Assembly (NCBI GenBank): GCA_937120965.1
Contig: CAKZKA010000259.1
Coordinates: 1 to 46,924, forward strand
Length of the DNA: 46,924 bases
DNA from: an uncultured Chloroflexota bacterium
GTDB taxonomy: Bacteria > Chloroflexota > Chloroflexia > Chloroflexales > Chloroflexaceae
Direction: 5' to 3'
This document shows positions 16,794-45,565 of the stretch, one piece after another (the stretch's first letter is position 1; each line of letters begins with the position of its first letter). The notes under the pieces were generated by a model. The model was not told the origin of the DNA. It ran no database searches and saw only the letters and a program-made list of their open reading frames with translations. The translations under genes were made by a program, and so were the position numbers.

Positions 16794-16940
16794 CTGGTTT
16801 CGTTTTTTGCGGAGAGGGCCAGGCCCTCTCCCATCCTCCCGCTGGCTGGGGGTAGGCTGAACCCCGGGTTCCTCTCCGCCCCTCCCAGGGAGGCCCGGAA
16901 GGGCGCAGCCCTCCCAAACCCTCCCCGCAGTGAGGGGGTT

Positions 16941-17166
16941 GGGGAAACCCGCTTTCCCCATATCCCAACCGCTGGTGGGAGCGGCTGGCGCCCCCACCGG
17001 CAGGGGGATGGGGAAACCCGCTTTCCCCGTTTCCCAACCGCCGTTGGGAGCGGCTGGCGCCCCCACCGGCAGGGGGATGGGGAAACCCGCTTTCCCCATG
17101 TCCCAACCGCTGGTGGGAGCGGCTGGCGCCCCCACCGGCAGGGGGATGGGGAAACCCGCTTTCCCC
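16941..17166. repeat. 69-bp tandem repeat array built on the GGGGAAACCCG palindrome
   Basis: Three full 69-bp units (16941-17009, 17010-17078, 17079-17147) and a partial fourth. Each has GGGGAAACCCGCTTTCCCC, then CCCAACCG-(C/G)TGGG, then GGCTGGCGCCCCCACCGGC and an AGGGGGAT tail. Units differ at only a few positions. The array sits between two convergent genes (esterase and glycosidase). The 69-bp period is a multiple of three, so every frame stays open, which explains spurious ORFs. Confidence 0.85.
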
Positions 17167-17210
17167 GTATGTTCACCTCAGATCATAGAAAACTGTTGTT
17201 GACAAGCTGA

Positions 17211-24238: not shown

Positions 24239-24350
24239 TGCGCCGTGCCGAGGGGCAGGAGTCAGCCAGGAGCATGTTCCTGGCGCATCGGGCCATAGCC
24301 CTGCGTTGTCAGTTGCCGTATCTACACCGGCGCCCATACCGGGGAGGGGC

Positions 24351-24497
24351 GTGCATTCCCGCTCGACGGCGCCAGCTCGGCATACTACCTCCGGTGGTTA
24401 CAACACAGTAACGATCAAACGCGCGGTCGAAATCTGGACTACGCTTGTCTGGGCGCTGCGCCACCCGATAGGTGGTGGCTGGATTTCGACGATATGA
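24351..24497 (+). CDS. Possible 48-aa leader or remnant ORF coupled to next gene
   Basis: A short frame starting GTG just after GGGGAGGGG. Its TGA overlaps the ATG of the next gene (ATGA at 24494-24497). The last half (AVEIWTTLVWALRHPIGGGWIST) looks protein-like. It may be a small coupled gene or the 3' end of a decayed upstream gene. No homology recognised. Confidence 0.3.
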   Translation: MHSRSTAPARHTTSGGYNTVTIKRAVEIWTTLVWALRHPIGGGWISTI

Positions 24498-25258
24498 CCA
24501 GTTTCGAGCAGCCGACGATCCTGGTGCGCGGCGACACCAGTGTCTGGCACATCTATATCAGCGGCATCCCTTCGGGTCGCCGGGATCGTGTGGGAACGCC
24601 GATTTCATACACCCTTGTCGCCAGTGGCAGGTGCGATGAATGGCACGATGGAATCCTGGGCTTGATCAGCACCTGCCTCGCAGAGGGCACAGGGGAAGCC
24701 CCGCCCGGAAACATGCAACATCGGTTTGACGCTGTATTTCCTGAAGCCGATGTTGAACGGTTGTTGCAGATTCGTGATACCACCGTGAATGAAGAGGTTC
24801 AAAGCAAGGTTCACACTGTGCTCGATCAACTCCCCGGCGTTCCACACGGAGATCACGAACGTATGCGTGGGTCCTGGATCGGCGCTGTCGCTGAGCCTGA
24901 GGCTCGTCAAGAGTTCGCCATCCGCGTCTCCAGGATCTTGCAGGGCAGCCACGCTGGAATTGCCGGGTTCCTCAATTTGATTGGCACCCCGGAAGAGGCG
25001 GTCCCCCTGCTCGATCGCTACGAGTCCGCAGCGATACTGATCGAAGGGAGCGCCGCTTCTCTCGGCGCATCTGTGGTTCCACTCAAAAAAAAAGCCATCA
25101 AACAGCCATGCCAGGCAACGGGCAGAACAACAACACACCGACGGATACTGTTGACATTGCAGGCCAATCTACGAGTAGTGATCCCAGGGCTGGTCATAGC
25201 GCTGGTCATAGCGCTGGTCATAGCGATATTTCTGCTAATCATGCCTCGAAGGGTATAG
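24494..25258 (+). CDS. Unknown protein with C-terminal membrane anchor (frame 0 product)
   Basis: 254 aa, not recognised with confidence. Residues 1-120 form a domain with LVRGDTSVWHIYISGIPSGRRDRVGTPISYTL. From memory this faintly resembles N-terminal domains of GTPase-associated conflict proteins, but that needs a profile search. Residues 130-197 are helical. KKK at 198-200 is encoded by nine consecutive A (25085-25093). After that comes a basic stretch, then a hydrophobic helix (GLVIALVIALVIAIFLLIM), itself encoded by three tandem 12-bp repeats, then PRRV and stop. A -1 slip at the A9 run would instead enter the next frame, giving a 386-aa protein without the helix. Confidence 0.6.
   Translation: MTSFEQPTILVRGDTSVWHIYISGIPSGRRDRVGTPISYTLVASGRCDEWHDGILGLISTCLAEGTGEAPPGNMQHRFDAVFPEADVERLLQIRDTTVNEEVQSKVHTVLDQLPGVPHGDHERMRGSWIGAVAEPEARQEFAIRVSRILQGSHAGIAGFLNLIGTPEEAVPLLDRYESAAILIEGSAASLGASVVPLKKKAIKQPCQATGRTTTHRRILLTLQANLRVVIPGLVIALVIALVIAIFLLIMPRRV
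25085..25093 (+). promoter_or_regulatory. A9 slippery run joining two overlapping frames
   Basis: Nine A in frame as AAA AAA AAA, in an otherwise GC-rich genome. Slipping back one base moves from the membrane-anchored frame to the open -1 frame, which stays open to 25653. It could be programmed slippage, a phase-variable tract, or a mutation/assembly error. Confidence 0.5.
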
Positions 25259-25653
25259 CAAGCGTTTTCGTTTCAGGTAGCTGGTCGCCTCTGGGAAAAC
25301 AGCTTCCTGGAGGTGAACTGCGTTTTAGAATTACGCGCTATCAGAGAAAACCCTTTACGCCTACAGTGGAGATCGCAGAAATGATTTCCATCGATCCATT
25401 CATAGTTAACTCTCAATTTTCAGGGATTATGAAAAGAGAGGGTTTAGGCTATCATTTAGATATTACTTTTGAAGACAAAAACGACATTAAATACAGGTTG
25501 ACCTCGGATGCCAATAATTTTCATGAAACTTTAAGAAATGTATTCCGTGGAGCAAGAGGCAAAATCTACAAAGAAAATCATGTCATTGGAGCTGTATTAA
25601 TAGATTTGCGTGATGGTAAACTGCTCTGGAACATCCTAACACACGTTGGTTAA
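25108..25653 (+). CDS. Unknown C-terminal domain ORF in -1 frame (possible fusion partner)
   Basis: Open in the -1 frame from the A9 run (25093) to 25653; the first ATG is 25108, with no ribosome site before it. The first 50 residues are a low-complexity linker (NGQNNNTPTDT, AGHS repeated three times) overlapping the membrane-helix codons of the other frame. Residues about 52-181 form a compact, beta-rich domain (VFVSGSWSPLGKQLPGGELRFRI, HLDITFEDKNDIKYRL, GAVLIDLRDGKLLWNIL) I do not recognise. The DNA from 25260 is clearly AT-rich (near 35-40% GC by eye), unlike its surroundings, suggesting transfer. It is most likely made as a frameshift extension of the preceding protein. Confidence 0.5.
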   Translation: MPGNGQNNNTPTDTVDIAGQSTSSDPRAGHSAGHSAGHSDISANHASKGIASVFVSGSWSPLGKQLPGGELRFRITRYQRKPFTPTVEIAEMISIDPFIVNSQFSGIMKREGLGYHLDITFEDKNDIKYRLTSDANNFHETLRNVFRGARGKIYKENHVIGAVLIDLRDGKLLWNILTHVG

Positions 25654-25704
25654 TGCCTGTCGGCGGAGGGCTGCGCCCTCCCGGACCCTCCCGCGCCCGG
25701 CCTG

Positions 25705-25817
25705 TGTACTGTTCACACTTCGCCTGGCTGCGCGGGCATCGTGCCCGCATCCAGGCTATTGCGGGCGGGACGCCCGCGCGCCCGGGGTGACGCCTTGCCC
25801 CACATGTGAACACGTAC
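25705..25817. mobile_element. MITE-like element family B, copy 2
   Basis: An element of about 113 bp ending GTGAACACGTAC, with the internal GCGGGC palindromes. It is flanked by the direct repeat CCCGGCCTG (25696-25704 and 25818-25826), a 9-bp target duplication. The peptidase promoter begins 15 bp beyond its right end. Confidence 0.75.
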
Positions 25818-25831
25818 CCCGGCCTGAGTTT

Positions 25832-45164: not shown

Positions 45165-45565
45165 TGAGGTGAAAATACGGGGAAACCGGGTTTCCCCAAC
45201 CCCCTCCCTGCGGGGAGGCGCCCCATTTTCATCGCGGCGTTGTGCGGCGCAGCCGCATGACCGTCTAACGTGAAAATAGCCCGCCCGCGGGAGGGTTTGG
45301 GAGGGCTGCGCCCTCCCAAGAATAATTATTTTCATTCCGGCGTTGTGCGGCGCAGCCGCATGACCGTCTAACGTGAAAATAGGGAACCCGGGGTTCCCCA
45401 CGCCCCTGCCTGCTGGAGCGCCAGGCGCCCCCAACGGCGGTTGGGGGGTGGGGAACCCGGGTTTCCCCGTGCCCCTGCCTATGGGTATGCTAGGCGACCC
45501 TGAGCGCGGCTGGGGTATGGGGAAACTCGGGTTCCCATACTCCTGCCTCCTGCCCGGGGGAGGGT
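45165..45565. repeat. Large composite repeat cluster (C, D, E modules)
   Basis: About 400 bp of stacked modules. One GGGGAAACCGGGTTTCCCC palindrome is at 45179. GCGGCGCAGCCGC hairpins are at about 45246 and 45349, each followed by ATGACCGTCTAACGTGAAAATAG (in part). A TTTGGGAGGGCTGCGCCCTCCCAA-type hairpin is near 45296. Three degenerate GGGAACCCGGGTTCCCC palindromes lie at 45383-45535. The two duplicated parts suggest local amplification. Confidence 0.75.

Follow-up and report, generated by a model that had tools for sequence, protein, structure and literature searches.

A candidate programmed -1 frameshift between a tail anchor and an alternative C-terminal domain in a bacterial gene family normally adjoining a P-loop GTPase gene

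The A9 tract and the two frames of the locus

The window, meaning the whole stretch of 46,924 nucleotides analysed here from an uncultured Chloroflexota bacterium, carries two overlapping frames joined at a run of nine adenines (25085-25093, + strand), which is the sole homopolymer of at least eight nucleotides across its 46.9 kb of 64% GC DNA. This run contains an in-phase slippery heptamer, A AAA AAA (25087-25093), followed by a G. The 0-frame ORF, ORF1 (24416-25258, +), comprises a conserved domain (TRGxxxDYxFLG...SGIPSxRxDxVGT...), a linker and a C-terminal membrane helix, as delimited by homology from QTRG onward and by the AlphaFold model. A preliminary description of this DNA had reported the A9 tract, which was confirmed in the sequence, as well as a frame 0 (24494-25258) ending in a hydrophobic helix and a stop, the latter being located at 25256. 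However, its placement of the gene start at ATG 24494 does not agree with the homology, which begins around 26 codons upstream (QTRG..., about 24416).

The transmembrane segment VVIPGLVIALVIALVIAIFLLIM (25175-25243, +) is present in the 0-frame only and corresponds to the model helix of residues 243-278. Its hydrophobicity depends on the frame, as the maximal 19-residue Kyte-Doolittle mean is 3.36 in frame 0 and -0.46 for the same DNA read in -1. Between 24901 and a stop at 25651 the -1 frame is open, in agreement with the earlier claim that it stays open to 25653, and it runs 130 amino acids beyond the ORF1 stop. Its extension (25093-25653, +) encodes 186 amino acids after the slip, forming a hydrophilic linker and a C-terminal domain. 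This tail domain (25237-25650, +) is reached only via the -1 frame and is predicted to be β-rich with a C-terminal helix, at low confidence (AlphaFold mean pLDDT 51.8). The length of 386 amino acids announced for a slip product from ATG 24494 was reproduced; the overlap of 165 nucleotides is correct when counted from the slip, whereas the whole two-frame overlap amounts to 358 nucleotides.

The AlphaFold model of ORF1 (mean pLDDT 83.5) shows a folded core, a disordered linker (residues 231-246) and then the helix (243-278), with the slip site at residues 227-229, at the edge of the fold, between the folded domain and the helix. In addition, a 12-bp tandem repeat of 3.1 copies (25189-25225, +) is read as LVIA repeats of the membrane helix in frame 0 and as AGHS repeats of the hydrophilic linker in -1, and its unit length preserves both frames. 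Elsewhere in the window, two 69-bp tandem repeat arrays (16933-17170 and 45382-45533) and a 48-bp repeat array (1-114) are found.

Homologous loci and the slippery heptamer

No close relative of the window protein was found among 61 related genomes, and the first genome scan with this protein gave no match. The first homolog, a protein of a Streptomyces aurantiacus plasmid, was obtained via plasmid tblastn; in its alignment the domain was seen to begin before ATG 24494. From this protein, three more Streptomyces, a cyanobacterial MAG (L044) and a Pseudonocardia MAG (L045) were reached. Three further loci came from a search of the class of the Pseudonocardia MAG and four from a search of the genus Streptomyces, giving 13 homologous loci besides the window: the cyanobacterial MAG, the Pseudonocardia MAG, nine Streptomyces and two further actinomycete-class genomes. 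One of the loci from the class search, L052, groups with Streptomyces in the tree. The ORF1 alignment, with 13 sequences, has 18 invariant columns. Low-scoring matches in the phylum (L002, L004-L008 and L035-L040) were chance-like and left out, and a distant cyanobacterial relative of ORF1 (L050), having neither the C-terminal helix nor a long -1 frame, was used as an outgroup only. In that locus (L050:1450-2430), a GTPase gene is followed by the helix-less relative, possibly a form without recoding. Phage and viral collections gave no match. Searches of ORF1 and tail against Pfam, NCBIfam and PHROGs returned nothing useful, and PADLOC returned weak matches only for the tail (AbiEi, E 0.0039; REase_II, E 0.021). 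In PDB sequence searches, the single match to ORF1, a ribosomal protein, was chance-like and discarded, and none was found for the tails.

Regarding the layout, the domain and the C-terminal hydrophobic helix share one ORF1 frame in the window and in 12 of 13 homologous loci, supporting the earlier proposal that one gene could give a membrane-tethered and a domain-bearing form by a -1 slip. Taking the helix frame as reference, ORF2 lies in -1 and overlaps ORF1 in the window and in each of the 13 homologous loci. The exception is L053, where domain and helix are out of frame with each other; its helix and tail keep the -1 relation, and the -1 frame ends at 1323, 141 amino acids past the helix stop. 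In this locus, a frame break is seen between C5 runs at 718 and 735, and C CCA AAA occurs at 784 (L053:700-800). The -1 frame is free of stops from the heptamer to the ORF1 stop in 14 of 14 loci (L053 being counted by its helix frame), and extends 130-242 amino acids past that stop in 13 of them. In L044 it ends 35 amino acids past the ORF1 stop, and reaching the tail domain requires another change of frame, at a G6 run. In the -1 frame this run is in phase as G GGG GGT, with one further -1 step leading to the tail (L044:5900-5925), and it may represent a second slip site, a MAG indel or decay.

The loss of the helix in the -1 frame is a constant of the family. After the slip, the Kyte-Doolittle maximum is 1.7-3.4 in frame 0 compared to -0.84 to 1.13 in -1 in all 14 loci, so that the -1 reading of the helix-coding bases gives a hydrophilic or neutral linker. 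Moreover, past the ORF1 stop, the third codon position of the -1 frame is richer in GC than the other two in 12 of 12 actinomycete loci. The tails are similar to one another within Streptomyces, and that of the window has a weak match to the cyanobacterial L044 tail (pairwise E 0.008). Homology between the window and Streptomyces tail domains was sought by alignment and was not demonstrable, and the tail domain appears to be lineage-specific, as judged from these sequences. Two -1 tails (L056:2361-3077 and L057:2307-3038) have an extra C-terminal region of ~90 amino acids, helical-looking by eye.

Scanning the final 450 nucleotides of ORF1 revealed, immediately ahead of the helix, an in-phase X XXA AAA heptamer in the window and in 12 homologs, situated 100-172 nucleotides upstream of the ORF1 stop (window and 12 of 13 homologous loci). 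Its form is A AAA AAA in the window (A9), L044 (A9), L045 (A7) and L057 (A7), C CCA AAA in six Streptomyces, as well as in L053 in its helix frame, and G GGA AAA in L054, L056 and L058. The following base is a G everywhere but in L044, where the A-run is two bases longer. Thus, the preliminary description rightly singled out the site, which is kept in homologs, but the kept form is the in-phase X XXA AAA and not the A-run. The alignment of homologs had been set beforehand as a check on this, and the contrary pattern, one continuous frame with no A-run, did not turn up. L056 and L057 are sister genes in the tree with different heptamers (G GGA AAA and A AAA AAA, respectively), suggesting that the function is kept rather than the letters. 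C_CCA_AAA and A_AAA_AAA are both prone to frameshifting in E. coli, and G_GGA_AAA was called inefficient in earlier work, yet occurs in insertion sequences (PMC4066793).

These heptamers cost rare codons, and none of the X XXA AAA type is present in 4,879 codons of the neighbouring GTPase genes. With the encoded residues taken as given and codon usage drawn from each gene outside the site, the probability of a heptamer by chance is ~0.13 for the window and 0.002-0.07 for each of the 12 homologs. The product over one gene per lineage (window, L044, L045, L041, L054, L056 and L058) is ~1e-11, a value that treats the lineages as independent and the residues as given. Site and layout are conserved across divergent lineages of the tree, with three heptamer types; the two frames, their phase, the heptamers, their conservation and the helix loss in -1 are, at the level of the sequence, directly legible.

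The overlap itself may be under selection in both frames. Comparison of three Streptomyces pairs gives fewer third-position changes per codon in the overlap (14/98; 0.14) than in ORF1 (184/766; 0.24; p 0.03) or in the ORF2 body (145/455; 0.32; p 0.0003), while the share of changes falling on third positions is not significantly lower in the overlap (p 0.08 and 0.33). The openness of the -1 frame was rejected as proof of recoding, as synonymous resampling often yields an open frame in GC-rich DNA: the probability that the -1 frame stays open throughout the overlap is expected to be 0.71-0.98 in the actinomycete genes, 0.46 in the window and 0.25 in L044, making openness alone a weak argument. 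As for stimulators, a hairpin of 12 pairs (GGCGG...CCGCC) starts 7 nucleotides after the heptamer in six Streptomyces, with one pair changed on both sides. The 45 nucleotides after the slip rank, by folding, in the bottom 8% of their gene in L044, L045, L043, L055, L057 and L058, and the signal across lineages is marginal (combined p 0.02). No stable structure follows the window slip (86th percentile within its gene), which may rely on its long A-run alone.

Alternative readings and the state of the window copy

Transcriptional slippage at the A9 or phase variation by tract length had been put forward in the preliminary description. Slippage of this kind would give a mixture of A9, A10 and A8 mRNAs. 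An A9 could slip in this manner, and the A9 of the window and L044, as well as the A7 of L045, are consistent with it. However, A9 occurs in the window and L044 only and A7 in L045 and L057, whereas the other ten of the 13 homologous loci have four A only with the same layout, and sites of four A are too short for polymerase slippage. The mark taken for this mechanism, an A/T homopolymer of about nine or more, is not kept across the relatives. Since several homologs have no A-run but C CCA AAA or G GGA AAA, ribosomal frameshifting is favoured and both of these explanations appear unlikely. A homopolymer error of assembly or sequencing, the true gene being one continuous ORF, deserves mention because A9 tracts are generally error-prone, the genome is a draft of 307 contigs, and L044 and L053 have extra, indel-like frame changes that may be errors. 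Against it, the two-frame layout with the conserved 0-frame helix and stop recurs in independent genomes, several of them without long homopolymers, and is also seen on an 8.5-Mb contig (L052) and on the complete S. aurantiacus plasmid. As the layout is shared by homologs, a plain mutation or an assembly error, which the earlier account had kept in view, is an unlikely source of the arrangement in the window, and for an assembly error the probability is very low.

It is also conceivable that these are ordinary overlapping genes, ORF2 starting inside or just after ORF1 by internal initiation or translational coupling, with no fusion. Start codons are present in the -1 frame (in the window, ATG 25108), and the S. 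aurantiacus plasmid record annotates the region as two separate hypothetical genes, with ORF2 as its own gene from an internal GTG start; the fusion protein is therefore invisible there. Nevertheless, no Shine-Dalgarno core was found at any ATG, GTG or TTG upstream of or at the ORF1 stop in the 14 loci, and the start positions are not conserved. Furthermore, the -1 residues D and L, coded before the ORF1 stop, are invariant in six Streptomyces, and separate genes would leave a rare-codon heptamer at one place unexplained, so that such an arrangement seems quite unlikely.

A more serious contender concerns the window copy alone, which may be a decayed, horizontally acquired and functionless fragment that inherited its two frames from a working ancestor, a prospect with somewhat less than even chances. 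No in-frame ATG, GTG or TTG lies between the stop at 24296 and 24494, although homology starts from about 24416, and starting at ATG 24494 would lose the invariant TRG..DY..P...WW segment; the copy may then be 5'-truncated or use an unusual start codon. There is no P-loop within 1.5 kb upstream of the gene, and no match to the L044 GTPase in the genome of the window. With neither a normal start codon nor a GTPase neighbour, the copy may be decayed. It also sits in an island (approximately 24240-25830, no strand assigned) that is missing from a genome of the same genus (G001) and one of the same family (G016), where the flanks adjoin. On the other hand, ~280 ORF1 codons and 186 post-slip codons are still free of stops, the repeat length of 12 bp keeps both frames, and the copy retains the residues that are invariant in the ORF1 alignment. 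The window copy attests to the family but is not the best member to exemplify it. Immediately to the right of the tail gene, a repeat of ~112 bp (25706-25817) recurs at eight other places in this genome with 91-93% identity, and also in related genomes.

GTPase neighbourhood, proposed mechanism and known systems

A P-loop GTPase gene is located directly upstream of ORF1 in 12 of the 12 homologous loci with upstream sequence, L053 being left out of this count because its locus starts at a contig end. Foldseek gave no significant match to the ORF1 model (best E 0.19). With VIA-align, ORF1 was matched to DENND10 (Z 3.4 over 184 residues), to a Lokiarchaeal roadblock-longin (3.2) and to other longins (2.6-3.1). 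Many of the rows covering the domain are longin/DENN proteins, including Vamp7, Sec22b, GATOR1 subunits and the FLCN complex, with Z 2.2-3.4. Scores in this range may reflect no more than a common arrangement. Rows matching only the long helix were disregarded. As the GTPase adjoins in homologs and these rows point to a weak longin/DENN-like fold, the working guess is that the ORF1 domain probably regulates the neighbouring GTPase or serves as its adaptor. Further upstream, a dynamin-like large GTPase gene is seen in the S. aurantiacus (L029:4509-6713) and Pseudonocardia (L045:1134-3782) loci, and its position upstream of the small GTPase gene suggests an operon of three or more genes.

The preferred reading, with a probability of roughly 0.86, is that programmed -1 frameshifting decides whether the product ends in a tail anchor or in a lineage-specific domain, in a family whose usual position is immediately after a P-loop GTPase gene. 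Ribosomes staying in frame would finish the domain and add the C-terminal membrane helix as a tail anchor. Those that slip back by one base on X XXA AAA, where the folded domain ends, would read the hydrophilic linker from the same DNA, then adding a separate, lineage-specific C-terminal domain in place of the helix. In-frame and slipped ribosomes on one mRNA would thus produce, in a fixed ratio, a platform form bound to the membrane and a form bearing the other domain. At the A9 of the window, the slip could also take place at transcription. We infer slippage itself, its efficiency, the partner and the function. A broader and more doubtful extension envisages an actinomycete-wide GTPase operon, with single cyanobacterial and other genomes, in which the frameshift might set the ratio of membrane platforms to subunits with exchangeable tails, a constant longin/DENN-like GTPase partner at the membrane being thereby equipped with variable domains of effector or sensor type.

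To our knowledge, few conserved, non-mobile bacterial genes use -1 frameshifting for two functional proteins. The family would add a case where the choice of frame determines whether the protein is attached to the membrane and which domains it contains, its homologs adjoining a GTPase, and is directly testable in high-GC Streptomyces. No library family or published description was found in Pfam, NCBIfam, PHROGs and the non-subscription literature; in this scope, the mechanism class is known, and the gene family, the choice of anchor or domain and the link to a GTPase operon are apparently undescribed. The GeneTack survey (PMC3711429) built its programmed-frameshift clusters from seven A-rich heptamers, C CCA AAA and G GGA AAA not being included.

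Regarding related systems, the GTPase-centric conflict systems with DO-GTPase and GAP1 (PMC7159879) likewise place a regulator-like gene directly after a GTPase gene and include membrane and variable components. They differ in that the best DO-GTPase2 score among the neighbouring GTPases of the family is 18.9, below the Pfam cut-off of 27, with none in the genome of the window, and Pfam GAP1 has no match in 12 family members; the word "frameshift" is absent from that paper. The longin/DENN regulators (DENND10, NPRL2/3 and the Loki roadblock-longin) share weak but coherent fold matches with the N-terminal part of ORF1 and the GTPase context in homologs; with Z at most 3.4 and sequence similarity to ORF1 not seen, membership is not claimed. 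Programmed -1 frameshifting at X XXY YYZ heptamers occurs in dnaX, copA and IS1/IS3-type transposases, as described in a review (PMC5009743) whose passages on the subject do not name this gene family. Those genes have in common with the present family an in-phase heptamer, a -1 overlap and two products from one start, here predicted from the sequence; the difference is that the choice lies here between a tail anchor and an extra domain, and that the heptamer type varies by lineage. The same review treats the editing of the Ebola virus glycoprotein as polymerase slippage (PMC5009743), which similarly sets a soluble or a membrane-anchored product. However, that case is viral and transcriptional, whereas most homologs of the present family have no long A-run, and the slip would drop the anchor and add a domain.
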